A DNA stretch of 64,000 nucleotides from Natrarchaeobius oligotrophus (GTDB lineage Archaea; Halobacteriota; Halobacteria; Halobacteriales; Natrialbaceae). Below, in pieces: positions 1-22,623 of the stretch. The notes under the pieces were generated by a model. It worked only from the letters and a program-made list of their open reading frames with translations, was not told where the DNA came from and searched no databases. Within the stretch, counting starts at the first letter, position 1. Each line of letters starts with the position of its first letter. Where the stretch lies: positions 1 to 64,000 of the forward strand of contig NZ_REFZ01000002.1 in the NCBI RefSeq assembly GCF_003841465.1, in the 5' to 3' direction. The position numbers were made by a program, and so were the translations under genes.

Positions 1-20
1 GAGCCGACGCATAATCCGAG

Positions 21-59
21 ATGAGGAGGCTTCGTTGTGCACACTCGTCGCCTCCTCAT
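21..59. terminator. 10-bp inverted repeat, possible terminator of an off-window gene
   Basis: ATGAGGAGGC at 21-30 is the exact reverse complement of GCCTCCTCAT at 50-59, with a 19-base loop. No gene is visible in the first 277 bases. The hairpin may mark the 3' end of a gene outside the window; it lacks an obvious T-tract. Confidence 0.35.
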
Positions 60-247
60 TCCTCTCGAAAAGATGCCTCGATAAGCCGCCGCTGTCACGT
101 GGTTTCTCGCTTAGCTAAAGACGGATAGTCGACTGATATCCCGGTAACTTCGATTGGTTCGATCTCCCCGTTGGCCAGTCGTGGATTGCGTAGTCGAACG
201 TATTGTACATGGACGGTCAGCGTACAGATCGCTACAGTATCCTCCGG

Positions 248-255
248 TTTTATTA
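248..255 (+). promoter_or_regulatory. TATA box of the surface-protein operon
   Basis: TTTTATTA is centred about 27 bases before the ATG at 278, the spacing expected for a leaderless haloarchaeal transcript. No Shine-Dalgarno sequence precedes the ATG, which fits. It is the only clear promoter before the four-gene run to 8258. Confidence 0.55.
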
Positions 256-277
256 CCCCCCCAGCTAGTTACGTGTC

Positions 278-3200
278 ATGAGTAGCGAAAGTCACTGCGG
301 GAGATGTTTATTCGGGGTGCGGTTCGGACGTGGGAAAAGGGTTAGGGTGGTAAACGAGTACCTTCGCACGGCGTTACTGGTCGCGATCGTCGTCCTGTCG
401 GTAATCGCAATATCCGTGATTTTCGCGGGCGCTGGTGCAGCCGACGACGGACCTGACCCCGATCCCGAACTTGCGTTTAACTACGACCCACAAACGGATA
501 CGGTGACGGTCGTTCACGACGGCGGCGGCGATCTCACACCGGATAATACGGATGCGATGGGCTTCGAGGGCAATTTTGGACTCGAGGAGGATCAACTAAC
601 GTGGCTAGTTGATTCCACGGAAGACGGCACGGCGGTCGTACTCGAAGAATCGGTTTCTGAGGGAGACGCGATTGTGGAAATTACGGACGTGACTGAGGAT
701 CAGGAACTCACAGTACTCTGGGTGAAAGATGACGACTTTAAAATCCTGGGGTCGTTCATACTACCCGACGAATCCACACCCGGAAACTGGACGGTAAATA
801 CGATCGGATCGCCGTCTCCGTGGGCTATCGATGACGGTACCACCTACGTAACGACCGACCTGGGTGAGATGTACGGATACGATACCCTGACTGGTGAGGT
901 CCAGACACGGACGACTGTGGAGGACGTACCTGTCAGTGCCACGGTCGCTGATGGGATCCTGTACTACGGTATCGAAGGTGAGGCCAACTTGCACGTCGCG
1001 GACGCTGAGACGGGGGAAGTACTGGACGAGTACGACACAGGCGGGTCTGTCGTCCATACCCCCCCAGTCGTTGAGGACGGAACGGTTTATGCAGCGGCCT
1101 GGGATAACGTATACGCGTTCGACGTTGAAACTGGAGAAGAAGAGTGGTCGTTCACCAACCCGGGAGACGAAATTCAGGGATCACTCACGTATCACGACGG
1201 GATTATCTTCACGAACGATGCACAGTTTAGTTCGTTGTATGCGATCGATGTAGATACTGGTGGCTCCCTCTGGTCTGTGAATCTCGATGGGCCAGCTGTT
1301 TCGACGCCGAGGGTCGATGATGGGGTGGTGTACACGAGTAGTAGCCCCGGCCAGCATGATCCCAATATGATGTACGGAGTCGACATTGAAACGGGTGATG
1401 TTGTCCTAGAAAAACAAGGAAATCTTCACGATGTGGAAGACGGGACGCTGTACGAAGTCGATAGCGGTACTGTCGTCGCGTTGGATGCCGATGATGGCGA
1501 ACAACTGTGGCAGTCGGATGATCACGGGATAAATCAAGTAACCGAACACGATGGCGTACTGTACGCAAGCGGATTTGGTGAAACGCTCTACACATTCGAT
1601 GCGGAAACAGGTGACCTAGAAGACACCCGTGAACACCCGGAGGACACGGTTGGCTCTCCAGAAGTCATCGATGACGTACTGTATTACGTTCTCTTTGACT
1701 CACACACGGTCGTCTCCGGCAGCGCAACGGGGATTGAATCACCGAGTGAATCGATCACGATTTCCGGAGAGATCACTCTCGCTGACGGGAGCCCAGCGGC
1801 CGATAGTACGGTAGCCCTATTCGCCGGGGAGGATGAGGACCCAACCACGGTGGGGACCGACTCGGATGGTGTGTTCGAAGTCGAGGTGGAACCAGGCGAT
1901 CGGCCGTATTACGTCGGATACTATCAGGCGCCGGAAACGGTCTTCGAAACGGTCAGCATCCAGAACGTCACGGCAGAGGAGGTCGATTACTACGAGGAAC
2001 TGGAAGGCGACCTACCTGCTGATGTCTTCCCTCGTGACGGCTCCGTCGACATGTACGGAATCGATGAGGTCGCCGCTACCGAGGACACCGACATCGGGAC
2101 GGTTACCGTCCCAGCTGGCCACGTCGTCAACGTGACCGTTGTCGACGACGGGGACCCAGTCGAAGGCGCCCCTGTCGGGTATCAACACACGGACACGGAT
2201 ACTGGTGGGGTCGCAACGGTTACCACCAAAACGGACGAGAACGGAACGCCGCTGTTGGCTCGCGACGGCGGTCTCGAACTCAACGGGGAAGTGGCCGTGA
2301 TGGCGGCCTCTGAATTCGGCGAGGAACCAAACATCAAGTCCGTTGACGTAACCGCGACCGAAGACGTCGTGATCGATCTGTCCACGGACGACGAGCCCCG
2401 TGACGATGTCGTTATCGAGCCGTATTTCGAGATAGAAGGACAGATTGGATGGCAAGTGGGCGACGAGATCGAGTTCGACGCATCCGATGCAGCGGCGTTC
2501 GACGGCGACGAGGAGATCGAGTTCGATTCGATCACCTGGGACTTCGGCGACGGTAACACGACCGTAGTCGATGATCCGGCGGAGACGCCACTCGTAACGC
2601 ACACGTACGCTGAGAGCGGTTGGTACGCGGCGAGTGCCACGTTCGAAGCCAGTGGGGTAGAGGAGACCTACACCCGGGAACTGCAGGTCAGCGAAGCGAT
2701 TACGCTGACGGCCGAACCGACGACTGCAGAGGTCAACGTCACCGAGGTCACGTTCACCGTCGAGGGGGCGGAAAATGACGATCACTTGTTCGGCTACGCG
2801 TGGGACGTCACCGGCGACGGCCAACCCGAGCAAGTGACGGACGCGGACGAACCGACGTACACGCACACCTACTCCGAACTCGGCGAATTCGAGGCAACTG
2901 TCCAACTGCAGAGCGAAATGAACCCCGCACAAGAGACCGTCACCGTCGACGTCGTCGACACGACCGACCCTGTTGCCCGTCTCGATGCACCCGCAAACGC
3001 TGCCGTCGATCAGACGGTGACCGCTGATGCAAGCGAATCGACCGACAATCATCGAATCGCCGACTACACGTGGGTACTGACGGACGAGGACGGATCGGTC
3101 GTCTTCAGTACCACCACTGACACGCCGGCCTACGAGTTCTCGGTCCCCCATCGCGGTGAGTACGAACTCGAGGTCACAGTAACAGACGAGAGCGGTAACA

Positions 3201-5593
3201 CGGACGCCACATCCCAATCGCTTTCGATCAGCGACGATACGGATCTGGCGATCGACCTCGATGTGGACGACGAACAGAACATCCGCGACGGCGTGAACGC
3301 CGACGCGGAGGTGACGAATCTCGGCTCGCGGACCGTCGACGATTCGTTCGCCGTCGAGTTGATTGCTAACGGGACGACGTACGAGGGAGAGTTCCAGACG
3401 ACCGACCTCGAAAAGGAGATCGACGAGGAGCTCAGCCAAGACGAGTCGACGACCGTTACCTTCGATCTCAGTGAGTGGGTCCAGAACCACCGTATCATCG
3501 GCGACCTCGACCTCCGTGTCGAAGCTGATCCGGCGGACAACATCTCCGAAACGACGCTCGAGAACAACGTTGACGCGGCGACGATCGAGGTGGTGTACGC
3601 CGAGTTCAACGCTAGTACGCACGCCTCCGAGGTCACACACGGTGAAAACACCACACTCCGGTCCTATGTGGCGAACGCCGGTACCGCGACGAGCGAAGAG
3701 ACGGTCGCTTCGGTAACCGTCACCGACGAGGATAACAACACCGTGTTCGAAAATGAAAGCGTCACCGTTGACGCCCTCGATCCGGGTGAACGGCAGCGAA
3801 ACCGGTTTGATGAACCGCTCGGTCCGGGCAATTACACGCTCACAGTTGAGGTCATTGATGACCTCTTCCCCGGTGAGTCAGAGACCGAATTCGCCGTCGA
3901 ACCGTACGAACTCACTGTCGACGAGAACCGGACGTCCGTTCCAAGTGACGTCAACCGTGGTCAGAACTTCACTGCCGTCTTTGGTTACGAGGCTAACACC
4001 AATGCAGAAGTCAACGCGACCCTCGAGTTACCCGAAGAACTCGAGTTTGTCGATGGTGACGATCCTGAGACGAAGACGGTCACCGTTCGTCCACGCGCAG
4101 GAATCACCAACGTAGTTGCCTATGACCTCACGGCGGTCGAGGCCAGCGAGGACCCAGTCGATCTCGATTTCACCGTCGAAGACACCCTCGAGCTGGACGT
4201 CGAGGATAACACCACTGCCCGGACGAACATCTCGATCGTAACCGAGACCGTGACCAACGAGACGGCCATCAGTTACGACGGGACCGAAGACACCGTCACC
4301 TCTACAATCGGCGTATACGGTGACGAGGTAAGTGAAGGCCACAACGTTTCGATTGCTGTCCAAGGTGGACCGGAAGGCCGAACCCTGCAGGGACTCGAGT
4401 ACCTGGTCAACTATCCGTACGGCTGTGTCGAACAGACGACTTCAGCGTTCCTCGGCGCGCTGAACACGCATCAGTACTACGAGGACCGAGATGACGGTGA
4501 CATCGATCCGGACCGTCAACAGGTGATCGACGGTAGTATCGAGGAGGGTGTCGATCGACTGGCCCCCGGTGGTATCCGGGAACAGCAAGACGACGGCTCG
4601 TGGAACCAGTGGGGTAGCTCCTGGCAGTCTGGCCAGTCCTACTTCAGCGTGCTTGCACTGTACGGACTCTCGCAGGTCGACAACGACGACAAATACGGTC
4701 CAGAAAACGAGGAGCGGCTCGATGACGTCGAATTCGACGACGCGGTCGAGTGGCTTGCTGCGGACGATAACTGGGCCGGCACGGACGGTTACCTCAACGA
4801 CGACGCCAGCGCGATTGGCTTCGCAGTAATCTCGCTCGAGGAGGCAGCAGAGAGCGAGCGAACCTCCGAGGAGTCTGCAGAGCTAATCGACGAAACCTAC
4901 GCCGACGCAGCGGACGAACTGCTCGAGATTCAGGACGACGACAGTCCGACGTGGAACGACGAGAATCACCGATCGACGGCCTTCGCGGTCTACGGCCTCC
5001 AGATTGTCCTGGACGCAGAGGCCTACGAAGACGACGAACAGCGTCAGGAGATCGAAAACGCAGTCGAAGACGGTGCCGCGTGGTTAGCGGACAACCAGAA
5101 CGAGGACGGATCGTGGGACCCGTACCACCAATCACCGTGGTACAATAACGAGGGAGACATCAGCAAATCGACTGCTATCTCGATGCTCGCCCTCGATGCC
5201 GCTGACGAAGTTGAATACGGCGCGGAAGTCCAGGCAGGAGTAGATTATCTGATCGACGTCTACGAAACGGACGGCTCCTGGGGCTACCCACGAGCAACGA
5301 ACATGGCGCTGACGGCACTTACCGAACTGACCAACGAGAACGCCGATCGAACGATGGAAGTGACGCTAGAAGGATCCGCTGACGTGGTCTCGGAAATCTC
5401 CGTCGATGCGGACGATCCACAGGCGAGCGAAGAGATTACGGGCGAACTGGCACAACTCAGAGAGGACAACGACGAGTTGAACGATGTGACCGTTAGCGTC
5501 ACTGACTCCAGTGAAGACGGCTCCGGAACGGTCATCGTCGCCGTGCAGACGACTCAGGAGGTCCATGAAGACGCAATCGGAGGTGAGAACTGA
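278..5593 (+). CDS. Giant secreted protein with propeller, PKD, CARDB and thioester (A2M-like) domains
   Basis: A 1771-residue secreted multidomain protein. A hydrophobic signal or anchor lies at about residues 31-55. A PQQ-like beta-propeller follows (about 180-480, repeats such as YAFDVETGEEEW), then a carboxypeptidase-regulatory-like sandwich (about 488-551), two PKD-like domains (729-791, 830-878; WDFGDGNT, YAWDVTGDG), a third Ig-like unit (897-985) and two CARDB-like units (988-1208). From about 1365 to 1688 there is an alpha/alpha toroid with the motif YPYGCVEQTTS (C1383, Q1386), the thioester motif of alpha-2-macroglobulin and complement-like proteins, and repeats of the NEDGSW kind. 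This suggests covalent attachment to, or trapping of, a target outside the cell. No PGF-CTERM is present, so it may be held by its N-terminal helix or by the partners downstream. It is first in a four-gene operon and overlaps the next gene (TGATG). Domain calls are by eye; the thioester motif is the firmest. Confidence 0.8.
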   Translation: MSSESHCGRCLFGVRFGRGKRVRVVNEYLRTALLVAIVVLSVIAISVIFAGAGAADDGPDPDPELAFNYDPQTDTVTVVHDGGGDLTPDNTDAMGFEGNFGLEEDQLTWLVDSTEDGTAVVLEESVSEGDAIVEITDVTEDQELTVLWVKDDDFKILGSFILPDESTPGNWTVNTIGSPSPWAIDDGTTYVTTDLGEMYGYDTLTGEVQTRTTVEDVPVSATVADGILYYGIEGEANLHVADAETGEVLDEYDTGGSVVHTPPVVEDGTVYAAAWDNVYAFDVETGEEEWSFTNPGDEIQGSLTYHDGIIFTNDAQFSSLYAIDVDTGGSLWSVNLDGPAVSTPRVDDGVVYTSSSPGQHDPNMMYGVDIETGDVVLEKQGNLHDVEDGTLYEVDSGTVVALDADDGEQLWQSDDHGINQVTEHDGVLYASGFGETLYTFDAETGDLEDTREHPEDTVGSPEVIDDVLYYVLFDSHTVVSGSATGIESPSESITISGEITLADGSPAADSTVALFAGEDEDPTTVGTDSDGVFEVEVEPGDRPYYVGYYQAPETVFETVSIQNVTAEEVDYYEELEGDLPADVFPRDGSVDMYGIDEVAATEDTDIGTVTVPAGHVVNVTVVDDGDPVEGAPVGYQHTDTDTGGVATVTTKTDENGTPLLARDGGLELNGEVAVMAASEFGEEPNIKSVDVTATEDVVIDLSTDDEPRDDVVIEPYFEIEGQIGWQVGDEIEFDASDAAAFDGDEEIEFDSITWDFGDGNTTVVDDPAETPLVTHTYAESGWYAASATFEASGVEETYTRELQVSEAITLTAEPTTAEVNVTEVTFTVEGAENDDHLFGYAWDVTGDGQPEQVTDADEPTYTHTYSELGEFEATVQLQSEMNPAQETVTVDVVDTTDPVARLDAPANAAVDQTVTADASESTDNHRIADYTWVLTDEDGSVVFSTTTDTPAYEFSVPHRGEYELEVTVTDESGNTDATSQSLSISDDTDLAIDLDVDDEQNIRDGVNADAEVTNLGSRTVDDSFAVELIANGTTYEGEFQTTDLEKEIDEELSQDESTTVTFDLSEWVQNHRIIGDLDLRVEADPADNISETTLENNVDAATIEVVYAEFNASTHASEVTHGENTTLRSYVANAGTATSEETVASVTVTDEDNNTVFENESVTVDALDPGERQRNRFDEPLGPGNYTLTVEVIDDLFPGESETEFAVEPYELTVDENRTSVPSDVNRGQNFTAVFGYEANTNAEVNATLELPEELEFVDGDDPETKTVTVRPRAGITNVVAYDLTAVEASEDPVDLDFTVEDTLELDVEDNTTARTNISIVTETVTNETAISYDGTEDTVTSTIGVYGDEVSEGHNVSIAVQGGPEGRTLQGLEYLVNYPYGCVEQTTSAFLGALNTHQYYEDRDDGDIDPDRQQVIDGSIEEGVDRLAPGGIREQQDDGSWNQWGSSWQSGQSYFSVLALYGLSQVDNDDKYGPENEERLDDVEFDDAVEWLAADDNWAGTDGYLNDDASAIGFAVISLEEAAESERTSEESAELIDETYADAADELLEIQDDDSPTWNDENHRSTAFAVYGLQIVLDAEAYEDDEQRQEIENAVEDGAAWLADNQNEDGSWDPYHQSPWYNNEGDISKSTAISMLALDAADEVEYGAEVQAGVDYLIDVYETDGSWGYPRATNMALTALTELTNENADRTMEVTLEGSADVVSEISVDADDPQASEEITGELAQLREDNDELNDVTVSVTDSSEDGSGTVIVAVQTTQEVHEDAIGGEN

Positions 5594-6852
5594 TGTCCTA
5601 CTCGCGACCGCTGCTCGTGTTCGTGACCGCAATCATTGCAGCTTGCGTCCTTTCAGTCGTCGCCGTCGGCGGCGTCGCTGCGCAAGATACCGACCTGACG
5701 GTCGAAATCGACCCCGCCGATCCGACGTTCGAGGGTGACGGTCAAACGGTCGAAGTCGAAGTAACAAACGACGACGACGCTGACCTCATCTTCCCGCTTG
5801 TGGAGGTGCCACTCCGAGACGGTCTCGAGATTCCCGACGATCGACGCTCCGTCCAGGGAGGGACGGAGTTCGTCGACGGCGTCGCGGTTCACGTCGATGG
5901 CTCCGTCGAGGATCGAAGTGCATTCGTCGACGATAGCACGTTTCGAACCGGCGATTCCCTGTTCATCGAGGGCGAGATGATCGAGGCCGGAGAAACCCGA
6001 ACCTACGTCTTCGACCTGACCGTAAGCTCTACGAACGAGGTGACGATCGAAGCGGACGTTCGACCGCTCAACAACGAAGAAAATAACGTCCGTGAGAGCG
6101 TCTCCGTCGATCCCGTCGCCTTCGGAACGCTCGAGGTAACGGCAGACGGTGCTATCGAAATCTCCGGCAATGAAATCGACGAGACTGGGACAGGTAGCCT
6201 CGTCGTAGACGTCCCCGGTGGCTTCGAGTACGACGTTACCGGGGAGTTGTCGCTCCTCGACGGTGAGCTGACGATCGACTCCGTGGGAGTCGCGGAGTAT
6301 GCGACCGAATCGGTCGCGTTCTCCGACGCCGACCCCGGCTCGGCGACCACTCCGATCGTGATCGCCCAGACGGACGATGCGGAGGTGATCGGAAACAGCG
6401 ATTCCCGGTCGGTCACCCGCGGTGACGCCGAAACCAACACCCTCCAGACCGTCGAATTCGACGCGACCAACAGTGGTGGAACGGCCGTCCTCGCACTCGA
6501 AGACGAACCGACCCTCCCGATGCACAGCCTCGATAGTCACAGCGTCCACGACGGCGAATGGCTCGCCCGAAGCGACGGCTCGGGAGTTTCCACCGTCACC
6601 CTCGACGGTGACTTCGACGAGACGGTGTCAGTGACGCTCGAGGGGTATCCGATCGGGGACGTTACGCTCAGCGGAACCGTTACGGACGACGACGCAGCGA
6701 CGATCGCTGCAAACCTCGCAGCTGGCGACGCGACACTCGAGTACGGTGATGTGACCGATGACGGGGAGATTACGGCAGTCGACGCGATGAAAATTCAGCA
6801 ATATCACGACGGCAATCGCGATGAATCGTACGACGTGACTGGAGGTGCCTGA
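5593..6852 (+). CDS. Secreted protein with C-terminal dockerin
   Basis: A 419-residue exported protein with an N-terminal signal peptide (residues 1-31, ending AAQ). The middle consists of acidic beta-rich sequence that I do not assign to a family; its first 140 residues resemble CARDB-type sandwiches. The C-terminus (about 355-412) carries two calcium-binding dockerin half-repeats, GDVTLSGTVTDDD and GDVTDDGEITAVDAMKIQQY, which is the duplicated F-hand layout of a type I dockerin. Dockerins bind cohesin domains, and the next gene encodes a cohesin-like anchored protein, so a dockerin-cohesin pair made from one operon is the natural inference. The start overlaps the previous stop by one base, implying translational coupling. 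Confidence 0.75.
   Translation: MSYSRPLLVFVTAIIAACVLSVVAVGGVAAQDTDLTVEIDPADPTFEGDGQTVEVEVTNDDDADLIFPLVEVPLRDGLEIPDDRRSVQGGTEFVDGVAVHVDGSVEDRSAFVDDSTFRTGDSLFIEGEMIEAGETRTYVFDLTVSSTNEVTIEADVRPLNNEENNVRESVSVDPVAFGTLEVTADGAIEISGNEIDETGTGSLVVDVPGGFEYDVTGELSLLDGELTIDSVGVAEYATESVAFSDADPGSATTPIVIAQTDDAEVIGNSDSRSVTRGDAETNTLQTVEFDATNSGGTAVLALEDEPTLPMHSLDSHSVHDGEWLARSDGSGVSTVTLDGDFDETVSVTLEGYPIGDVTLSGTVTDDDAATIAANLAAGDATLEYGDVTDDGEITAVDAMKIQQYHDGNRDESYDVTGGA
6841..6847 (+). promoter_or_regulatory. Shine-Dalgarno site for the cohesin gene
   Basis: GGAGGTG ends seven bases before the ATG at 6855, inside the last codons of the dockerin gene. It is a strong ribosome-binding site that fixes the start and shows the gene is translated from a polycistronic mRNA. 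Confidence 0.6.
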
Positions 6853-6854
6853 AA

Positions 6855-7700
6855 ATGGCGATCTCACTTACTCGCGTTCACGCCGCACTGGAAGCCGGAT
6901 TGTCAACTCGAGCGCTCAGGCTATTCGCCGTGTGTTGCGTACTTGCAATCTGTGCATCAGTCGTTGCAGCCGGCGGCGTCGCCGCAGACGCGACGGTGAC
7001 GTTCGACGATCCAGAGGAGTTTGACGATAGTGCTGACGCAAACCTGATCGTGACGGATGTTCCGGCTGACACGGGCGTCGGAGCGTACGAACTCGAGGTC
7101 TCGTACGATCCAGATGCCGTCGCTCTCGATATTTCCGGAACTGACCGGTTCATCGTCGAATCGGAGACCGAGGAAAACCAACGCGATACGGTGACCGTCG
7201 TCGGGTACACTGGTGACGTCGACGAGACACCGGGAACACTGATGCTCGCCGAACTGACCGTCACCGGAATCGCCGACGGTGAGACCGATCTCCGAATCGA
7301 GGCGATCGAGACGTTCGCCGATGTCGATGGCGAGGCGATCGATCACGACCACGACGATTTGACGCTGGAGATCGACTCCGATACCAACGGCGGGCCTACT
7401 AACGGCGGTAGCGGCGGTAGCGGCGGAGGCGCTCCGCCCGTTTCCGATTCGGACGACGATGAAGAAACGGATGACACGGTGACTGACGATCCAGCCACTG
7501 ACGATTCTGTCGAGGATGATTCGGAAACTCCCGCACCGACCACTGACGACTCCGCCGAAGATGACGCAGAAACTCCGGATCCAGCGACTGACGATTCCGC
7601 CGAAGACGAAGACACGATTCCCGGCTTGGGCATTAGCATCACTATCTTCGCCGTCTTCGCCGGACTCGCGTTTGTAATCCGAACTCGTGAGTTACAGTAA
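6855..7700 (+). CDS. Cohesin-like surface protein with PGF-CTERM-like anchor
   Basis: A 281-residue exported protein. After a signal peptide (to about residue 45) there is a roughly 130-residue cohesin-like beta domain (GVGAYELEVSYDPDAVAL, then MLAELTVTGIADGETDL), a glycine-rich linker and a Thr/Asp/Glu-rich repeat linker (units such as PATDDSAEDD). The C-terminus is IPGLGISITIF followed by a hydrophobic helix and RTRELQ, the layout of an archaeosortase substrate but with PGL in place of PGF. It would present the cohesin outside the cell and could dock the dockerin protein encoded just upstream. The gap to the previous stop is two bases. The cohesin call rests on the local motif pattern; a profile search would settle it. 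Confidence 0.72.
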   Translation: MAISLTRVHAALEAGLSTRALRLFAVCCVLAICASVVAAGGVAADATVTFDDPEEFDDSADANLIVTDVPADTGVGAYELEVSYDPDAVALDISGTDRFIVESETEENQRDTVTVVGYTGDVDETPGTLMLAELTVTGIADGETDLRIEAIETFADVDGEAIDHDHDDLTLEIDSDTNGGPTNGGSGGSGGGAPPVSDSDDDEETDDTVTDDPATDDSVEDDSETPAPTTDDSAEDDAETPDPATDDSAEDEDTIPGLGISITIFAVFAGLAFVIRTRELQ

Positions 7701-7703
7701 GTA

Positions 7704-8258
7704 ATGGATACACCCACGTCCCCCTCCCGTGTTCGCTTTCGGCTCCGATCCCGTCGTGACGTGCTTGTGGCTGTCGGATCGACGATCGTTCTCGCTGGAT
7801 GTACGGGCGAGAACAACCAACGCGCCGCGAACGAAGACGACGGATCACGGGGTGCAAATAGGGGCGATGAACGCGGTGAAGACAACGAACAAGGTGCGAG
7901 TGCGGACGACGATGCACTCGAGTTCTTCCGATCGCATCTCGACGACGTGGACGTCTCGGTTGTCACTCTCGAGACCGCTGAGAGAACCGTCGAGTTAGTG
8001 TACGCCACCGAGGCGGCTACCGACCAACAACTCGCCGACGAAATCGGAACCATCGCCGGGGGATACATTCTCGCACGAGATCACGGACTCGAAACGGATC
8101 GACTCGAATCGACAGTTACCGACGGAAGCGACCCGCTTGCCACGTGGTACGTTCGATCGACGTGGGCCGAGGAGTTCGAAGCGGGGGAGATTACCCCTGA
8201 GGCGTTCTCCGCGAACGTGTTGAATTCGGTGGAATTGGCCGATTCAGAAAGCGAGTGA
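7704..8258 (+). CDS. Small Tat-exported lipoprotein
   Basis: A 184-residue protein with a twin-arginine segment (SRRDVLVAVG) and lipobox LAGC (C33), so it is predicted to be Tat-exported and lipid-anchored outside the membrane. An acidic Asn/Asp-rich linker precedes a compact folded domain (about 70-180) that I do not recognise. It begins three bases after the cohesin gene and closes the surface-protein operon. It may be an accessory subunit of that complex; no enzyme motif is visible. Confidence 0.65.
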   Translation: MDTPTSPSRVRFRLRSRRDVLVAVGSTIVLAGCTGENNQRAANEDDGSRGANRGDERGEDNEQGASADDDALEFFRSHLDDVDVSVVTLETAERTVELVYATEAATDQQLADEIGTIAGGYILARDHGLETDRLESTVTDGSDPLATWYVRSTWAEEFEAGEITPEAFSANVLNSVELADSESE

Positions 8259-8515
8259 TGTTTTCACGATTTTCGTGTCTTCAGTTACTGGGCGTGGTCT
8301 ACAGAAGATTGCACGCGAGGGAGGGGGGGTAATCGCTGCCAATCGTTTCTCGCCGGCCTTGCCCGGCCGATCCACTGGGTCGACGATCGGCGTCGATGTC
8401 TCGAGATTCTTGTCCATCAACTACCTACCACTAATATTGGAATCAATATCTCGAATTATATAGCCGGATGCTAAAGCTGGAGCACCGGTATCTCTGGACC
8501 GTGTTCGACGTGCGA

Positions 8516-9679
8516 TCAGTTCTGTTCGGCGCTTTCGTCGATGTTGACCCAGAGATGGACGCTGTAGTCAGTTGTTTCCATCGTGGGTTCCGACGGCACC
8601 CCTCCGTCGGGATACAACAACCAGACGATCCGGACGTTTTCGCCGGTGAGCGACGGTTCGACGCTGTGTGCGTGGTGCCACGACTCGTTGTGCTCGAGAC
8701 GGGTCTCGAACCGATCGAGTTCGCGCTGGTTCGTCACGACCGTTTCGTTCAGCACGCTCTCGTTGGATTCGTCTACAATGCCCGACTCGTTCGGCACCTG
8801 ATCGGTCTCCTGCTCGAGGACGACGACGGTGTAATCGACGGTCCGGTGTTCGTGGTTGTCGACGCCGAGAACGATTTCGGCGCTCTCCCCGGCCGACAGG
8901 TCGGTCGGATAGCCGTCCGCGACGAGTTCGCCGTCGTCTTCCGTGAGAATGTACACCGCGGAAAACTCTTCGCCCTGTGGCGGGACGACGATAGCGAACG
9001 TCACCGTTCCGAGGGCCAACACGATCGACAGCACGAGCAACGCGTTCAACAGCCCGTCGGTCCGGGACTCCGGTTCGAGCAGTTCCGTCCGTCCGCTCTC
9101 GTACCACTCCCGGTACGGAACTCGGAACCGATCTTCCGGCGGGAGGTCCCACCGACGAATCGCGGCGATCGCCGTCACGGCGAGCGTGAATCCGGTCGTC
9201 GCGACCATGATGGGCGCGAGCCGAATCCCCCACGGGGTAAAATTCAACGCGAGACCGATTAGCGGCGTGATCGCGATACTGAGTCCGAACGCTAGCGCGA
9301 CGCGCTCGATGCCGTCGATTCCCGACCGCGACGGCGCGTCGGAAAACAACCCGGTCCCGTCTCCGTCCGATACGTCGTTCTCTCGCGATTCGTCGACCTG
9401 CTCGCCCCACACTCCTTTCTCGTCCGGCGTCGACCCCGCCCGTTCGTCGCCGGATGCTCTCTCACCGGCTTCGGGAAACAGCGCCGCGATGAACACGTAC
9501 CCCGGTATGAACAGGACGAAGAGCAGACCGAGCGGGATCCGAAGCGGCGTCTCGCGAACGACGGGCGCGAAGACGGCGACGTTCACCAGTAGCGTCACCA
9601 CGAGCGTGCAGCCGAGATCGGCGGGCAACGCACGGACCGGTCGTGGCAGGAGCAACCACAGTGACCGTCGGTCGACCAT
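8516..9679 (-). CDS. DUF1616-type membrane protein
   Basis: A 387-residue membrane protein. The N-terminus has two closely spaced helices with the segment PLGLLFVLFIPGYVFIAALF, typical of DUF1616 proteins, then an acidic loop, two more helices around residues 125-175 and one near 215-235. The C-terminal half is an extracytoplasmic beta-rich domain (ADGYPTDLSAGESAEIVLGV) like those linked to surface polymer or S-layer glycosylation loci. The function is unknown. It follows the MoxR operon on the same strand after a 350-base gap with a hairpin, so it may be a separate unit. Confidence 0.65.
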   Translation of the reverse strand: MVDRRSLWLLLPRPVRALPADLGCTLVVTLLVNVAVFAPVVRETPLRIPLGLLFVLFIPGYVFIAALFPEAGERASGDERAGSTPDEKGVWGEQVDESRENDVSDGDGTGLFSDAPSRSGIDGIERVALAFGLSIAITPLIGLALNFTPWGIRLAPIMVATTGFTLAVTAIAAIRRWDLPPEDRFRVPYREWYESGRTELLEPESRTDGLLNALLVLSIVLALGTVTFAIVVPPQGEEFSAVYILTEDDGELVADGYPTDLSAGESAEIVLGVDNHEHRTVDYTVVVLEQETDQVPNESGIVDESNESVLNETVVTNQRELDRFETRLEHNESWHHAHSVEPSLTGENVRIVWLLYPDGGVPSEPTMETTDYSVHLWVNIDESAEQN

Positions 9680-10029
9680 TCACTCGAGCAACGGATCGAC
9701 GACGATAAAAGTCGGTCGGTCTCGCCGTCACGGCGAACCCAGTGTCAAAACGATCCAACGACGGTAGACCATCGCGTCAATCCCCTTTCGCTGCTCTCTG
9801 TGAAACACCGGCACGAGAGCCGGTGTTCTTTGGGTGTCAGTAGCGGGGCGAGAGGGGGCTACTGTCGGTGTGGATAGTGACGAGTCCCCCAACCCCGCTA
9901 GGGACGAGTTTCACCTCTATCTATCCAAAAATGTTGGAAAACTAATACCAGCAGCTGGAATGAATATGTGGGGTGTGTGCACGTCCCGAAACGAACGTCC
10001 TCCGACCGTGTCCCGAACGGTCCTCCGGA
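9680..10029. other. Intergenic gap with one hairpin
   Basis: This stretch lies between the end of the DUF4129-like gene and the start of the DUF1616 gene, both on the minus strand. I see no coding region with support. The only structure is the perfect hairpin at 9804-9827, listed separately. Confidence 0.5.
9804..9827 (-). terminator. 9-bp perfect hairpin, possible terminator
   Basis: AACACCGGC, a six-base loop, then GCCGGTGTT. It lies about 200 bases past the end of the DUF4129-like gene and before the DUF1616 gene, so a transcription or processing stop is plausible. It could also be the remnant of a small mobile element end. Confidence 0.4.
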
Positions 10030-12105
10030 TCACCCGATCCCCTCGCCCGCGACCTCCCGTCTGTACAGTCGGCGCGCCGTTTCGAGAGCGCGCTCGGCGT
10101 CTTCGACGGACGTCCGCCGGGGAGTGTAAGTCGCGCGCTCGTACGCTTGCGTGATCTCTTCGAGCGAATCGACCTCTCCATCGAGTTGGCGATATCGTCG
10201 GTAGAACTCCCAGTGGGTGAGCGTCCCCGGTCGGGCAGTCTCGAGCGACGACTCACAGATCGTTCTGGTCGCGGCGTAACAGAGTCGCGTCGCCGCGTCC
10301 GGATCCCCGCTTTCGAGGCGGTCGTCTGCGCTTTCGAGCAACGACTCGACGACGGATCGTCGTTCCTCGAGGGGCGATCGTTCCACGGGCGCGCTTTCGC
10401 GTACGGGTTCGCGAGCCGTCGTGTCGCGCTCGCCACCGCTATCTCGATTCCGATACCGACGTGCGAGTCCCAGTCCGATCGCCGTCACCACGAGTCCGGA
10501 CAGTGCCCACGCGGCTGCCGATCCGGGAACGCTTCGTTCCGCTCCCTCGTCCATCGTCACCGTCGCTTCCGTACTCGCCAGGTTCGTCCCCGACCCGTCG
10601 TAGGTGGCGACGATCGTTCGTTCGTCCGCTCCCGCGTCTCCGACCGAAACGGTCCCCGTGAAGTTGCCGTCCTCGTCGGTTCCCACCGTCTGCATCGACA
10701 GTCCGTCCGTCCGGATCTCGATCTCTTGTCCTTCGATTCCTTCCCCGCCTTCCGTCTCGAGCCTGCCGTCGAGGAGAACGCTCGAATCGTTCGTTCGCTC
10801 CGCCTCGAGGGAGATCTCGGTGTCCGTCTCCCGGACGGTCACCGTTCGCTCTGTTTCGGCCGACGACAGGGCTCGCTCTTCGAAGGGAAACCCAACTCGA
10901 AGCGTCCGGTCGCCGTCGGTGACGGTGGCCGGAACCGGTACCGTTCCCGAGAACGATCCGTTTTCGACGCTGAGTTCGTCAAGCTCGTGCTCGCCGAGTG
11001 TGACCGTCACGGGTACGTCGTCGACCGGCAACTCCGCGTCGGTTTCGAAATCGCCTTCTACCCTGACCAGCTCGCCGTAGCCAATCGACGACTCCGTCTC
11101 GAGATTCTCGATCCGCACCTCGGTGGACTCGATCGAGACGGGAATCGACGCCCGCGAACCGAGGTATTCCGAGCCGGGATCCGGACGGTACTCGACCGCG
11201 ACGGATTCCGTCGAGAGCGCTTCGAGCACCGGCCGATACGCGAACTCGAGGCTTCCATTACCGTGAAACGTCGTTTCTAGCGGCCTGTCGCGAACGACGA
11301 GCTGCCCTCCGTTCCCCGCCACGGGCTCTCCGTCGGCGGTCCGTACCTCCGCCTGTCCCGTCATGGGCTCCAGAAACGACGCGCGCTCCCCGTCCGGTTC
11401 GAGGACGAGTTCGGTTTCGACGAACTCCGCTTCCCGGATGACTGCTTGCTCCCGTTCGACGGTCGCGCTCACGTTCGCGGTCGCCTCGCTCGCAGGATCG
11501 AAGTCTCGGTCCGTCTCCGCCGTAAGTCGGTCGTATCCGCCGCTGACGCTTTCGTTGAGATCGCTGATCTCGCCGGCGAGCAACTCGAGTTCGCGTGCGA
11601 GTTCGCGAGCACGCGTCCGGTCCCCCTCCTCTCGTGCCGTCTCGTACTCGGATTTCGTCTCGTAGTATTGCTCGGTTCGGTTAGCGAACTGGCTCTGCTC
11701 CTCGGCCGTTTCCTCGTACGACTGTCCGGCCGTCGCCCCGTCGCCGTCCTCCTCACCACCCGTTTCGCCGGCGACGTCGACGTACTGCTCGAGTCGATCG
11801 TAGTACTCCTCGTCGACGTACTCGCTCGCCCGCTCGTACTCGCCTCGATCGAGAGCGATCGCGCTGTCGCTCAGTCGCTCGCCGAGCTGATCCGCCAGCC
11901 AGGATTCGGTCGCGTCGGTTCCGCCGTCGCCGTCGTACTCGTCGGGATTCTGGTGACGAATCGTCTCGTTGTCGTCGTCTGTATCGGCTGCGACGACGCC
12001 GACACTCGCTCGTTCGTCGTGGACGACGGTCGCACCGCTGGCCGTGATTGCGACGAGGCAGACGAGGAAAACGACCGCGAGCGTTCGGACGACGACACCG
12101 TGCAC
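10030..12105 (-). CDS. Membrane protein with Ig-like repeats and DUF4129-like C-terminus
   Basis: About 691 residues from the preferred GTG start: an N-terminal signal or anchor, a coiled, highly acidic region, several Ig-like sandwich repeats (for example PVDDVPVTVTLGEHELDELS and EGIEGQEIEIRTDGL), a transmembrane helix (AAWALSGLVVTAIGLGLA) and a cytoplasmic helical domain with the DUF4129 look (GTLTHWEFYRRY, then AYERATYTPRRTS). DUF4129 domains occur next to MoxR/DUF58 systems and transglutaminases; no transglutaminase domain is present here. The frame extends to 12195, but a TATA-like CTTTTTGTC near 12131 is about 27 bases before the GTG at 12105 and the signal helix then sits at the N-terminus. 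It lies just downstream of moxR. Confidence 0.65.
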   Translation of the reverse strand: MHGVVVRTLAVVFLVCLVAITASGATVVHDERASVGVVAADTDDDNETIRHQNPDEYDGDGGTDATESWLADQLGERLSDSAIALDRGEYERASEYVDEEYYDRLEQYVDVAGETGGEEDGDGATAGQSYEETAEEQSQFANRTEQYYETKSEYETAREEGDRTRARELARELELLAGEISDLNESVSGGYDRLTAETDRDFDPASEATANVSATVEREQAVIREAEFVETELVLEPDGERASFLEPMTGQAEVRTADGEPVAGNGGQLVVRDRPLETTFHGNGSLEFAYRPVLEALSTESVAVEYRPDPGSEYLGSRASIPVSIESTEVRIENLETESSIGYGELVRVEGDFETDAELPVDDVPVTVTLGEHELDELSVENGSFSGTVPVPATVTDGDRTLRVGFPFEERALSSAETERTVTVRETDTEISLEAERTNDSSVLLDGRLETEGGEGIEGQEIEIRTDGLSMQTVGTDEDGNFTGTVSVGDAGADERTIVATYDGSGTNLASTEATVTMDEGAERSVPGSAAAWALSGLVVTAIGLGLARRYRNRDSGGERDTTAREPVRESAPVERSPLEERRSVVESLLESADDRLESGDPDAATRLCYAATRTICESSLETARPGTLTHWEFYRRYRQLDGEVDSLEEITQAYERATYTPRRTSVEDAERALETARRLYRREVAGEGIG

Positions 12106-12230
12106 GCTCGGTGATTGGTCGGTCTCGACAAAAAGGTGTCTGCTCGCGCTCGAGCGGTCTGCCGTGAATTGCAAGGGGGGCGTTCGTCCCGACAACCCTT
12201 GCGTTCACCACGATCGTCGGATTCGGGCCA

Positions 12231-13232
12231 CTAGCGGGACGCGGCCCGCACGTCGCTCGCGTCGGGAACCGTGACCGCGTCGACGACGTCCGCGACGACG
12301 TCCGTCCGATCGACGGCCGCGAGATCAGCTTCGGTGCTCAAGACGAGTCGGTGTGCGAGCACCGACGGCGCGAGCGCTTTCACGTCGTCCGGAAGAACGT
12401 ACTCCCGACCCCGGATCGCCGCGAGCGCTTTCGCGCCGTTCATAAACGTGAGGCTCGCACGCGGCGACGCGCCGTGAACCGTGTCCGGATGATCGCGCGT
12501 CTCCCCGACGAGATCGAGGACGTACTCCTTGACCGGTCTGGCGACGTAGACGTTCGAGACGAATTCTCGGGCCGACACCAGCGTCTCGGGATCGACCACT
12601 CGATCGACGCTATCGGGACCGAGTTCCGGATCGTCGTCGAACCGATCCAGCAATTCGATCTCCTCGTCGCGATCCGGAAGGTCGATCGTGAGTTTGAACT
12701 GGAATCGATCGCGTTGAGCTTCCGGAAGCTCGAAGACCCCCTCCATCTCGATTGGATTCTGCGTCGCGATCACCATGAACGGCTCCGGCAACGCGAGCGT
12801 CTCTCCTTCGATCGAGACGCGCCGCTCCGCCATCGCCTCGAGCAGCGCGCTCTGGGTCTTCGGCGTCGCGCGGTTGATCTCGTCCGCGACGACCAGGTTC
12901 GTAAAGACCGGCCCCTTCTGAAGTTCGAACTCGCCCGTGTTTTCTCGGTAGACGTGCGTTCCCGTGATGTCCGCCGGCATGACGTCCGGCGTCATCTGGA
13001 CTCGACGGTACTCTAGGCCCGCGGCTCGAGCGAACAGGTTCGCGAGCGTCGTCTTCGCGACGCCGGGAACCCCCTCGACGAGGAGGTGTCCGCGCGTGAA
13101 CACGGCGACTGTGAGGAGTTCGATCGCGGCTTCGTTCCCGACCAGCACTGTTCCGATCTCCCGCTCGATCGCCTCGTAGACGTCCGTGGGGGTTCGAGAA
13201 TCGGAGTCCAACGCCTGGTCCGTCTCACTCAT
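12231..13232 (-). CDS. MoxR-family AAA+ ATPase
   Basis: A 333-residue AAA+ ATPase of the MoxR branch, thought to act as a chaperone that matures or inserts cofactors into partner proteins, commonly with DUF58/VWA proteins. Walker A is GVPGVAKT (54-61) and Walker B is VVADE (D117, E118), followed by INRATPKTQSALLEAMAE with the sensor region ATQNPIEMEG. Length and motif order are normal and complete. Its ATG overlaps the stop of the DUF4350-like gene by four bases (ATGA), so the two are coupled. The usual DUF58 partner is about 10 kb away on the other strand (23606-25144). Confidence 0.92.
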   Translation of the reverse strand: MSETDQALDSDSRTPTDVYEAIEREIGTVLVGNEAAIELLTVAVFTRGHLLVEGVPGVAKTTLANLFARAAGLEYRRVQMTPDVMPADITGTHVYRENTGEFELQKGPVFTNLVVADEINRATPKTQSALLEAMAERRVSIEGETLALPEPFMVIATQNPIEMEGVFELPEAQRDRFQFKLTIDLPDRDEEIELLDRFDDDPELGPDSVDRVVDPETLVSAREFVSNVYVARPVKEYVLDLVGETRDHPDTVHGASPRASLTFMNGAKALAAIRGREYVLPDDVKALAPSVLAHRLVLSTEADLAAVDRTDVVADVVDAVTVPDASDVRAASR

Positions 13233-14757: not shown

Positions 14758-15906
14758 TCACCGGAAGACGCGTCGCTCGAGCCCGAACAGTAACACAGCG
14801 ACTGCGAGAATCAACGCGGCGGTCATCGGAACGGTGTCGGCGTCTCCCGCAGTCCCGTCGCCCGCGCCGGTGTCGCTCGAGTCGTCCTCGTTCGGCTGGA
14901 CGACGTTGTCGGCCGTCTCGTCGCCGTCGGAACCGTCGTCGTCCGCAATCCCGTCGTCGGACGAATCGTCGCTCTCCGACTGCGGGTCGTCGTCAGCATC
15001 GGACTCCGTTTTGTCGTCACTCTCGTCGTCCGTCGGCTCGTCGTCCTGGCCGTCGTCGTCGGAATCCTCGAGGTCGTCGTCCGCGCCCTTCTCGTCGTCG
15101 ACCGGCTCATCGCCTCCCGGTTCCTGACCGCCGCCCGGTCCGTCTCCGTTGGTCGAGTCGTCGCCGTCGTCCGCGTCGGTGATTTCGACCGTACTCTCGT
15201 CGCTCACCGCCAGGATCTCCGGCTCGTTGGCCATCTCGAGGTCGTCCTCGCCCTGCGCGACGGCGTAGACGGCGTAGGTCGATCCGACCTCGAGCTCCGA
15301 CGTCGACACGGACGCCGCGTACGCGTCGCCGGAATCGTGGGCGGCGTTCTCCCGGACGACCGTGTCGTCGTCCCAGACCGCCACCTCGACGTCGTCCGGA
15401 TCGTGAGTGAGCTCGCCCTCGGCAACGGTGACCCCGATCTCGATCTCGTCGCCCTGTGAGACGGCGGTCGAGTGCTCGAGCGACACGTCGTAGCCGTCGA
15501 CGACGACTGGGTGGACGTCGACCGGATTTGCGCCGTCAACGTACAACACGAGTGCGTACGATCCCGGATCGACGTCGTCGGTCTCGAACGTGACAGCTTC
15601 GGACCCGGTTCCGCTCGCGAACGCCTCGACGCCGCCTTCCGAATCGAGGAGATTGACGTCGTAGTTCGTATCCGCCGGTATCGACACCGATGCGGCTACG
15701 GGTTCGCCGTGTTCGACCGTGCCGAGCGCCGATATTTCGTACTGCGTCCCGTCGTACGTCACGGTCTCCGTCGGCGTATCGATCGCGCCGTCGACCGAGA
15801 TGGAGTAGTCGTCCGCTACGACGACGGCCGTTCCGACTGCCAGTCCGGCGGTGAGGGCTGCTACCAGAACCAAACGTGTCGTCCGACGACGAGATTTCGT
15901 TTTCAT
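14758..15906 (-). CDS. Secreted surface protein with acidic linker and C-terminal membrane helix
   Basis: About 382 residues. The start at ATG 15906 gives a classical signal (MKTKSRRRTTRLVLVAALTA); the frame continues upstream to 15984 but adds only non-signal sequence. Mature sequence: two beta-sandwich-like units (about 30-230), then a roughly 120-residue Asp/Glu/Ser linker (repeats such as DDESDDKTESDADDD), then a hydrophobic helix ending ERRVFR. That is the layout of a sortase- or helix-anchored wall protein, but there is no PGF motif (the helix is preceded by DTVPMTAA). It is divergent from the PGF-CTERM gene at 16038. No enzymatic motif is seen. Confidence 0.68.
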   Translation of the reverse strand: MKTKSRRRTTRLVLVAALTAGLAVGTAVVVADDYSISVDGAIDTPTETVTYDGTQYEISALGTVEHGEPVAASVSIPADTNYDVNLLDSEGGVEAFASGTGSEAVTFETDDVDPGSYALVLYVDGANPVDVHPVVVDGYDVSLEHSTAVSQGDEIEIGVTVAEGELTHDPDDVEVAVWDDDTVVRENAAHDSGDAYAASVSTSELEVGSTYAVYAVAQGEDDLEMANEPEILAVSDESTVEITDADDGDDSTNGDGPGGGQEPGGDEPVDDEKGADDDLEDSDDDGQDDEPTDDESDDKTESDADDDPQSESDDSSDDGIADDDGSDGDETADNVVQPNEDDSSDTGAGDGTAGDADTVPMTAALILAVAVLLFGLERRVFR

Positions 15907-16037
15907 GATTTGCGGAACGGGCGTGTTGCGGGGAGTCGCATACCCGCTGAATGCGAATACTATTACGTGAACGTACCGGTCCAATCGTTGCCTTCCTGTT
16001 CCTCGTCCATATTCTCAAGCGAATTACGATGTGACAA

Positions 16038-20138: not shown

Positions 20139-21383
20139 TCAGAGCAACTCGAGCGGCGGCGTTCGGCTGATCCGCCAGCCGGTCAGCGCCGCAGAGAGCG
20201 TGCCGATGCCGACGGCGATGAGAAATCCGCCGGCGAGAATCGTCGGCGACAGCTGAACCAGTCCGTCGAATCCGACGACGGCGCTCGCGAGTCGGTCGAG
20301 GAGGTGGGCGGACGGCGAACTGAGCGCGACGCCGAGTGCCCCGCCCAGCGTACCGATCGCGATTCCCTGACCGACGACGGACGCGATCAACAGCGTCGCG
20401 GAGATCCCCTGTGCTCTGAGGACGGCGAACGCCCGCCGCTGTTGGTAGACGACGAGCGCGAGCAGGTTGGCCGTCAGCGCGATTCCCGCACCGACGGCGA
20501 GAATCACCAGCGTCACGCCGGCCGCGAGCACGAGCACCTGCTCCTGGAGGACGGCGTCCAGTTGCTCCTGGTTGGTCCGGATCTCGTATTCGGGGTGTGT
20601 CTCCTCGAGATCCTGCTGGACGGTTTCGGGATCGGCGTCGTCCTCGAGCGTGACCGTGATAAACGTTGCCGGCTCGGTGTGGGTCGTTCCCGTCGCCTGG
20701 TGAAGCTCACTCAGCGGCATGACGACCGTCGGCGTGCCGAGCATCCGCTCGAACGTCGGGGAGATGCCAACGACGGTGACTTCGTTCTCCCGCGCGACGG
20801 CGTACGAGCCGCCGACGTGAATCGTATCCCCCACGTCGACCCCGAGTTGTCGCGCCGTCTCTTCGTCGATCACGACCTCGTTCGTTCGGTCGCCCTCGTA
20901 CGTTCCGTCCGCGTAGTGGGGATCGCCGGGAAACAGCTCTCCGTCCGTAACCTGGACGGTCGATCCGCCACCGGTCGTCCCGGTCGCGACGAACGTTCGG
21001 AACTCGCCGTCGCCCGTTCCGACGTAGACCGTTTCGAACGCCAGCGGAACGGCGTTTCTGACCCCCTCGTGCTCGGAGATCGCCGCAGAGACGTTTCGCG
21101 AATCGTACAGCGTGTTTTCGAATCCGCCGCCGCCGACCGGGGTGATTCGCGTCTCGCCGGCGGTTACCCACAGGTCGCGGTCGGCGGTTTCGAACTGCTG
21201 TTCGCCGGTTTCGACGACGCCCATCCCCACCCCGGCCAGCAGCGTCATCGCGAGCACCGCGAGCGCGATGCCGACGATCGCCATGCCCAGTCGAAGCTTG
21301 TGATGACGAAGCTGACTGACGGTAATTTCTCCGGCCGTCCGGAGGCGTGCGAGCCATCGAACGATTGCGCGTCCCGCCTCCAT
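20139..21383 (-). CDS. ABC transporter permease, MacB/FtsX type (second copy)
   Basis: About 414 residues. One N-terminal helix (LGMAIVGIALAVLAMTLLAG), a large extracytoplasmic MacB-type periplasmic-core-like domain (about 50-270, with GDTIHVGGSYAVARENEVTV), then three helices (LVILAVGAGIALTANLLALV and two more to the C-terminus), the FtsX topology. Such permeases pair with a LolD/MacB ATPase to extract or export lipoproteins or other substrates. The start is ATG 21383 because GGAGG lies nine bases upstream; a GTG at 21419 would overlap the previous gene. It follows the first permease by 22 bases. Confidence 0.8.
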   Translation of the reverse strand: MEAGRAIVRWLARLRTAGEITVSQLRHHKLRLGMAIVGIALAVLAMTLLAGVGMGVVETGEQQFETADRDLWVTAGETRITPVGGGGFENTLYDSRNVSAAISEHEGVRNAVPLAFETVYVGTGDGEFRTFVATGTTGGGSTVQVTDGELFPGDPHYADGTYEGDRTNEVVIDEETARQLGVDVGDTIHVGGSYAVARENEVTVVGISPTFERMLGTPTVVMPLSELHQATGTTHTEPATFITVTLEDDADPETVQQDLEETHPEYEIRTNQEQLDAVLQEQVLVLAAGVTLVILAVGAGIALTANLLALVVYQQRRAFAVLRAQGISATLLIASVVGQGIAIGTLGGALGVALSSPSAHLLDRLASAVVGFDGLVQLSPTILAGGFLIAVGIGTLSAALTGWRISRTPPLELL

Positions 21384-21405
21384 CACGCACACCCTCCGAT
21401 CCCGT

Positions 21406-22623
21406 TCATTCCGGGACACCTCCGGTCACGTGCCTGGTCAACAGCATGACGTACGGGAGCGAGAGCATTCCGACCGCCAGGGCGACGACCGTCCCGTAGA
21501 CGACGAACAGATAGTGAGAGACGGCGATCGGTTCGGTCGTCACCGTCCTCGTCGCGATCTCGTTGACCACCCGGATCACTCCCAACCCACCGACCGAGCC
21601 GACGAGCCCGCCGATCGCGGTCACGATCACCGTCTGGACGCCCGTCAGCGTGAGCTGACTTCGGGTTGTGATTCCGAGTGTTGACATGGTCGCGAGTTGA
21701 TTTCGGTCGGCGACGATCTCCAGGCCGGTCGTCGTCAGCACGAACAGCGTCCCGATGGAGATCGCGACGACGAGTGCGGTCAGCGCGAGCGCGAGCGAGA
21801 GATCCGAATCCGCGACCTGCGTCGCCGTCAGTTCGCCGCGCGTGAGTACCTCGGAAGTCGGATACACCCCTTCGAGGTCGTCCCGCACCGCCGGCGTCGT
21901 CGTCCCCACGACGAACTGGTCGGCCTGATCGTGTTCGCTGGCGCCGGTCAGCGTCTGTAGCTCGCTCAACTGAACGACCGCGACAGGGACGTTGCCGCCG
22001 GCGCTCGAGCCCTCGTCGACGTCGTGGACCGCGAACCGCTCTTCCCCCTCGATCGCGATCTCGTCGCCTCGCTCGGCGTCGAGTAATCCGGCTGCGCCGC
22101 TCGAGAGGACGACCTCGCCCGTCCACTCGCCGTCGTAGGTTCCGTTCGCGTAGTGCGGGTCGTCGTGGCTAAGCGCGTCGGTCGAGACGCCCGCGACGCT
22201 CTCCAGGCCGGGAGCGTTGACGACGCCGACGACGAGGACGAATTCGGATCGATCGTCGCGTTCGATCCGCAACACTTCCGCCAGCACCGGCGACGTAACG
22301 TCGACGCCCTCGTAGCTCCGAATCCGATCGTTGGTTTCGTGAACGGATCCGAACTGCGGCTGGTCGGTTGCGACAAGCAGCGAGCGCTCCCCGTCCGTCT
22401 CCGGAACGATCCAGTAGTCCACGTCGTCGTCGTACACCGTCGTTCCGGTGGCGAGCCCGACGCCGATTCCGGTCACGACGACCAGCAGTGCGATCGTCGC
22501 AGCGACCCCGAGGACGGTGAACTGAACGCGCTGTCGATCCGTCGCCGTCGCTCGAGCGACCGTTCGGCGGACGCCCACCGACAGGAAGCCGACAATCCGC
22601 GTCAAACGCGTTCGAATGCTCAT
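21406..22623 (-). CDS. ABC transporter permease, MacB/FtsX type (first copy)
   Basis: 405 residues with the same layout as the next gene: N-terminal helix (VLGVAATIALLVVVTGIGVG), large external domain (about 65-270), then three helices (SLALALTALVVAISIGTLFV, VIVTAIGGLVGSVGGLGVI, YGTVVALAVGMLSLPYVML). The two permeases presumably form a heterodimer on the ATPase encoded immediately upstream; the ATG overlaps that gene's stop by four bases. The substrate is unknown, but lipoproteins or surface molecules are possible from the family and the surroundings. Confidence 0.82.
   Translation of the reverse strand: MSIRTRLTRIVGFLSVGVRRTVARATATDRQRVQFTVLGVAATIALLVVVTGIGVGLATGTTVYDDDVDYWIVPETDGERSLLVATDQPQFGSVHETNDRIRSYEGVDVTSPVLAEVLRIERDDRSEFVLVVGVVNAPGLESVAGVSTDALSHDDPHYANGTYDGEWTGEVVLSSGAAGLLDAERGDEIAIEGEERFAVHDVDEGSSAGGNVPVAVVQLSELQTLTGASEHDQADQFVVGTTTPAVRDDLEGVYPTSEVLTRGELTATQVADSDLSLALALTALVVAISIGTLFVLTTTGLEIVADRNQLATMSTLGITTRSQLTLTGVQTVIVTAIGGLVGSVGGLGVIRVVNEIATRTVTTEPIAVSHYLFVVYGTVVALAVGMLSLPYVMLLTRHVTGGVPE

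Follow-up and report, generated by a model that had tools for sequence, protein, structure and literature searches.

The window analysed here comprises the initial 64,000 nucleotides (64 kb) of contig NZ_REFZ01000002.1 of the haloarchaeon Natrarchaeobius oligotrophus. Near its beginning lies a putative operon of four genes (278-8258), which encode a thioester-domain protein related to alpha-2-macroglobulin (A2M) and complement (gene 1), a dockerin-bearing protein (gene 2), an anchored cohesin protein (gene 3), and a lipoprotein (gene 4). All four open reading frames are located on the + strand in a near-gapless run, in which the junctions are a 1-base overlap (-1) and gaps of +2 and +3 bases, and an export signal was read by eye at the start of each protein. 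Coordinates, junctions, and export signals agree with the original prediction, made from the sequence alone, of four exported proteins in a tight run. A TTTTAT box is found approximately 26-31 bases 5' of the gene 1 start and would suit a leaderless haloarchaeal transcript. Since window base 1 is also the start of the contig, which bounds the view upstream of gene 1, the sequence 5' of base 1 is out of view. The features of the operon are as follows (TED, thioester domain):

278..5593, +: gene 1, exported thioester-domain protein of 1771 amino acids with an A2M/complement-type TED (Pfam); homologues are present in further haloarchaea and in methanogens
839..1456, +: PQQ-type beta-propeller of gene 1, N-terminal, a module that varies among relatives (Pfam)
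2699..3214, +: PKD domains of gene 1 (Pfam)
3266..3571, +: CARDB domain of gene 1 (Pfam)
4250..5575, +: thioester region of gene 1, CUB-TED-CUB-like (alignment, PDB profile search, fold of the homologous methanogen region)
4424..4435, +: thioester motif Cys-Val-Glu-Gln of gene 1, invariant in 8/8 aligned sequences
5593..6852, +: gene 2, exported protein of 419 amino acids with a C-terminal dockerin, corresponding to the C-terminal part of fused methanogen thioester proteins
6655..6804, +: type I dockerin of gene 2 with two calcium-loop repeats (Pfam, PDB profile search)
6855..7700, +: gene 3, exported anchored cohesin protein of 281 amino acids
6984..7421, +: cohesin domain of gene 3, folded segment (Foldseek against PDB)
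7617..7697, +: putative anchor at the gene 3 C-terminus, PGF-CTERM-like with PGL for PGF (the Pfam PGF-CTERM cut-off is exceeded by homologues)
7704..8258, +: gene 4, twin-arginine translocation (Tat) lipoprotein of 184 amino acids

The thioester domain of gene 1 matched the Pfam family TED_complement with 26.1 bits (cut-off 22). The segment NYPYGCVEQTTSAF at 4409-4450 contains the intact motif CVEQ, and the extended sequence CVEQTT was invariant among the eight aligned thioester regions. A PDB profile search with the thioester region found the A2M of E. coli and Salmonella as well as TEP1 and CD109. The structure of the core was modelled for the fused protein of Methanogenium marinum (L029), a homologue of window genes 1 and 2. 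This model was fair to good across the TED and the surrounding beta domains and poor in the part corresponding to gene 2; its top PDB matches were complement C3, C5, and C4 and bacterial A2M (E 2.8e-23 to 2.5e-19). The comparison of the modelled homologue with C3, C5, and A2M supports the placement of the TED between CUB/macroglobulin-type beta domains. Partial profile matches to squalene-hopene cyclase, which arise because both families share an alpha-alpha toroid, were rejected, as the CVEQ motif and the flanking beta domains fit A2M. The modules preceding the core differ among the relatives and comprise a subtilase, MG4, and PKD in L019, eleven PKD domains in L020, six CARDB domains in L021, MG2 in L169, and FG-GAP plus CARDB in L155 (MG2 and MG4 according to Pfam). 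Several methanogen thioester proteins carry an N-terminal cohesin-like domain. Because the N-terminal modules vary while the reactive core remains constant, a recognition or targeting role would suit the protein.

The dockerin of gene 2 scored 23.4 bits for Dockerin_1, just over the Pfam cut-off of 22.9, and the profile of the gene 2 family found solved dockerins in the PDB at E 5e-9. Both calcium loops, GDVTLSGTVTDDDA and GDVTDDGEITAVDA, are visible in gene 2 and are kept in its relatives. In loop 1, Ser occupies one ligand position of the window copy, whereas Asp or Asn predominates there in the relatives. Gene 2 had no A2M domain match in Pfam, and the low-confidence part of the M. marinum model corresponds to it; from its place after the TED, it may start with a macroglobulin domain. 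Judged from the relatives, genes 1 and 2 correspond to the two halves of one protein. As both genes are fused in these relatives, the dockerin would in effect be the tail of the thioester protein, and the two chains are likely to associate.

The cohesin domain of gene 3 scored 20.0 bits, under the Pfam cut-off of 24.1, which the homologue in L169 passes with 25.3 bits. The PDB profile search returned only 2xdh, at a nonsignificant E of 1.3. For a model of the domain (mean predicted local distance difference test score, pLDDT, 65.5), ranks 1-22 of the PDB fold search were all occupied by cohesins, alone or in complexes, with a best E of 1e-5 and the archaeal 2xdh among them. We assign gene 3 as a cohesin on this modelled fold, which outweighs a sequence cut-off that is a convention. 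The C-terminus IPGLGISITIFAVFAGLAFVIRTRELQ contains IPGLG, that is, PGL in place of PGF. Binding of the gene 2 dockerin by the gene 3 cohesin is likely, as predicted from the conserved adjacency of the two genes. The domains named in the original prediction, that is, a thioester domain in gene 1, a two-repeat dockerin in gene 2, and a cohesin-like domain in gene 3, were all recovered, and the C-terminal anchor of gene 3 would be of a PGF-CTERM-like type. That thioester protein and dockerin protein are separate was correct for the window, but the relatives reveal the two as parts of one protein.

The gene set was compared in 27 loci, 12 of them haloarchaeal (window included) and 15 from elsewhere in the phylum, methanogens included. 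A search with the thioester region in 293 genomes of the order yielded eight loci in seven genomes; a gene 2 profile search in 392 genomes gave 13 strong matches in 11 genomes from three families. The phylum-wide search detected the thioester region in five further families, with M. marinum as one example, and in a second phylum sample of 295 genomes all 14 strong gene 2 matches were located at thioester loci. In all 12 haloarchaeal loci, the thioester domain is followed by the gene 2 module and the cohesin on one strand and almost without gaps, so the arrangement is not due to chance, and the neighbourhood proposed earlier is conserved. One of the haloarchaeal loci (L020) encodes genes 1 and 2 as a single protein of 2322 amino acids. 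Outside the haloarchaea, the thioester domain and the gene 2 module are fused in every locus (15/15), which brings the fused loci to 16 of 27, and a short cohesin protein follows at -10 to +15 bases downstream in nine of the 15. The archaeal set formed one clade (100/100) in a tree of the thioester region. Because fused forms fall both outside and inside the haloarchaea in this tree, the fused form is probably older, and more than one change would have accompanied its split in haloarchaea. The operon is accessory, since the gene 2 profile had no match in three congeneric species. Within window 1-10000, the operon has a lower G+C content (57-60%) than much of the next 20 kb (up to 67%), which agrees with an accessory gene set.

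The most frequent additional partner among the relatives, out of sight for the original prediction, is a subtilase, which was encoded close by or within a fusion at 19/27 loci (12/15 non-haloarchaeal, 7/12 haloarchaeal). Pfam Peptidase_S8 matches of 153-205 bits were obtained for L019, in which the subtilase is fused to gene 1, and for L020, L021, L029, L155, L157, and L164; at further loci, the subtilase was judged by its active-site motifs. Several of the checked subtilases carry such a domain themselves, for example, a dockerin in L021 (29.1 bits) and a cohesin in L157 (34.6 bits). In the majority of methanogen loci, a subtilase bearing a dockerin and/or cohesin lies immediately upstream, and such subtilases also occur near the Haloferax loci; the distance between subtilase and thioester gene is only -4 to +21 bases in seven methanogen loci. 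Five haloarchaeal loci, including the window, have no linked subtilase in view. A search of the N. oligotrophus genome itself found five subtilases, none of which could be assigned to the region missing upstream of the operon. Another locus (L173) has two subtilase-motif proteins in tandem (3317-6589 and 7689-10877), both with a dockerin-like match at the C-terminus, and a thioester protein is not in view there.

Domains, motif, gene order, fusion, and the linkage to subtilases in relatives are read from sequence or fold, and they lead us to lean, with moderate confidence, towards a complement/A2M-like covalent capture protein that a dockerin-cohesin plug would keep docked at the cell surface and that is likely protective. 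Gene 1 would provide the variable N-terminal part and the thioester core, and gene 2 the C-terminal module ending in the dockerin; both chains would probably remain joined after export. The membrane-anchored cohesin of gene 3 would then grip the gene 2 dockerin. A trigger, most likely a cut by a protease (the linked subtilase where present, or a foreign protease), would expose the buried thioester, which could bond covalently with a nearby attacking protease, a toxic protein, or the surface of a neighbouring cell. In A2M and complement, proteolysis causes a conformational change that opens the thioester. The most likely role is protection against hostile proteins or cells. Defence is placed first because secreted serine proteases act in haloarchaeal killing; a halolysin is reported to release an antagonistic peptide from a precursor (PMC12893001). 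An anchored surface complex, as proposed originally, is the natural reading of the confirmed domains and the kept neighbourhood, and its binding and covalent capture are predicted features. Possible but rather doubtful is the more specific proposal of a prokaryotic complement-like system, in which a two-chain protease-activated thioester protein would be mounted by a dockerin-cohesin plug beside a docked subtilase of its own that activates it and would covalently tag or trap hostile proteins or cells.

We rank defence above three other roles, which are adhesion, surface proteolysis, and a control function for the subtilase of the cell itself. The repeat-rich stalks (PKD, CARDB, propeller), which are characteristic of surface stalk proteins, and the surface anchor of gene 3 would also be expected of an adhesin or a mating or aggregation device, with the docked thioester protein bonded to neighbouring archaeal cells or surfaces as in Gram-positive thioester adhesins. 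This is unlikely, as the TED and the domains on either side of it belong to the A2M/complement type, unlike those of the Gram-positive adhesins, and as the subtilase linkage better matches proteolytic triggering. More unlikely still is a surface proteolysis unit for nutrition or surface turnover, in which cohesin-dockerin pairs would assemble a subtilase and a protein-holding TED protein into a proteolytic analogue of the cellulosome. The dockerin- and/or cohesin-bearing subtilases that lie immediately upstream at most methanogen loci and in the vicinity of the Haloferax loci would fit such a unit, but the five haloarchaeal loci described above lack a linked subtilase in view, and a purely digestive role is disfavoured because methanogens do not live on protein. 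The least probable of these roles is that of a dedicated inhibitor or holder of the cell's own secreted subtilase without an external target; the tight subtilase-TED operons in seven methanogen loci and the one fusion (L019) are in accordance with it, but some loci have no linked subtilase, and a covalent trap with variable heads exceeds the needs of a dedicated inhibitor.

Several points weigh against a docked, protease-triggered capture protein. The association of the chains, the docking, the formation of the thioester, the trigger, the target, and the role are all steps that we infer. As the gene 2 part of the model is unreliable, a macroglobulin-type fold is not established for gene 2. The Haloferax copies have YPYW or YPHA preceding CVEQ, where YPYG is usual. 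No subtilase is visible in the window, in which the contig begins just before gene 1, and genes 1-4 had no match in the defence library PADLOC.

Archaeal homologues of A2M and thioester-containing proteins (TEP) have been described in Halobacteria and Methanomicrobia (PMC8416519, 2021), for example, WP_050459478.1 of Haloferax gibbonsii, a species in which we also found a locus of the present gene set (L028). The proteins of that report belong to the same group as gene 1; they are exported and contain Ig-like domains and a TED with CxEQ. They are located near surface proteins, endoproteases, and antimicrobial-peptide transporters, and an immune role was proposed. The family arCOG14565, which recurs downstream, may be gene 2, 3, or 4. 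The words dockerin and cohesin occur 0 times in its main text, supplements aside, and the passages at hand make no mention of a two-gene split or a docking partner of the thioester protein. The earlier statement that no described system with this gene set was known needs correction for the thioester protein, which has a precedent, including one in H. gibbonsii; this protein type was thus already known, and its mounted, split, and subtilase-linked assembly is a novel variation. Dockerin, thioester, and macroglobulin were found together in no paper of the literature collection searched.

Bacterial A2M (E. coli YfhM; 4ziu), complement C3/C4/C5, and TEP1 resemble the archaeal proteins in the CxEQ TED between beta domains and in the fold match. 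They have no dockerin, and E. coli A2M is itself a lipoprotein, whereas here a separate anchored cohesin would hold the protein at the surface and the C-terminal part is a gene of its own in most haloarchaea. The two-loop type I dockerin, the cohesin fold, and the position of an anchored cohesin next to a dockerin protein are shared with cellulosomal and non-cellulosomal cohesin-dockerin pairs, known from clostridia, Archaeoglobus fulgidus (cohesin 2xdh), and anaerobic methanotrophic archaea (ANME; PMC9012536). The cited review of archaeal cohesins and dockerins terms their meaning unclear. Unlike in the cellulosome, the cargo is a thioester protein, in relatives also a subtilase, and not a glycoside hydrolase, and there is one cohesin per anchor without a multi-cohesin scaffold. 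A cellulosome was rejected, as gene 3 has a single cohesin and no glycoside hydrolase catalytic domain exceeded the Pfam cut-off. The VARTIG modules of Thermococcales are likewise big Ig-domain surface proteins resembling TEPs, but are defined by a hypervariable Ig-domain protein and have another gene set (PMC8416519). A viral origin of genes 2-4 was rejected, since no PHROGs match was obtained.

Until now, the archaeal A2M/TEP homologues have been a gene list with a suggested immune role. The dockerin-cohesin mounting indicates how an A2M-like protein could be kept on the cell, the fusion identifies the gene completing the thioester protein, and the linked subtilase is a candidate trigger. 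With these three identified, complement-like covalent defence in archaea becomes testable, and Haloferax, for which genetics is available and of which some species carry the operon, is the testing ground. The haloarchaeal cohesin-dockerin pairs also gain a non-cellulose cargo.

Gene 4 contains a twin-arginine motif and the lipobox LAGC, both read by eye. A homologue adjoins the cluster in 12/12 haloarchaeal loci, although its side and strand vary, and gene 4 was not found in the methanogen loci examined. The wide gene 4 family is present in 87/146 haloarchaeal genomes, which weakens its candidacy as a specific core part; a close subfamily is located at the thioester loci. The proposed membership of the lipoprotein in the set thus holds for its position in haloarchaea and not beyond, and an accessory haloarchaeal lipoprotein is the best explanation. 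The operon is followed by a recurrent neighbour:

8516..9679, -: DUF1616 membrane protein (Pfam, 381.7 bits), present in 11/27 loci

This neighbour recurs next to thioester loci of both haloarchaea and methanogens. In Haloferax volcanii, the DUF1616 protein HVO_2173 is part of an N-glycoprotein cluster with HVO_2160 (PMC8241124). Also next to the operon (window 10030-13232, -), a weak DUF4129 match was obtained for an exported protein that adjoins a MoxR-like ATPase. Further downstream, a MacB/FtsX-type ABC transporter and an exported orphan protein are encoded (20139-23435 and 14758-15984, both -); a Haloferax locus (L021, 14228-17999) has similar-looking genes, with an orphan of like N-terminus and an FtsX permease. 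On another contig of the N. oligotrophus genome (L026), a second dockerin gene (11399-12703) directly precedes a gene (6646-11415) whose product matches cohesin weakly and has propellers, PKD domains, and a PGF-like end, and a like pair was found in another genome (L174). Haloarchaea may generally use this layout, in which an anchored cohesin gene comes after a dockerin gene, for display.
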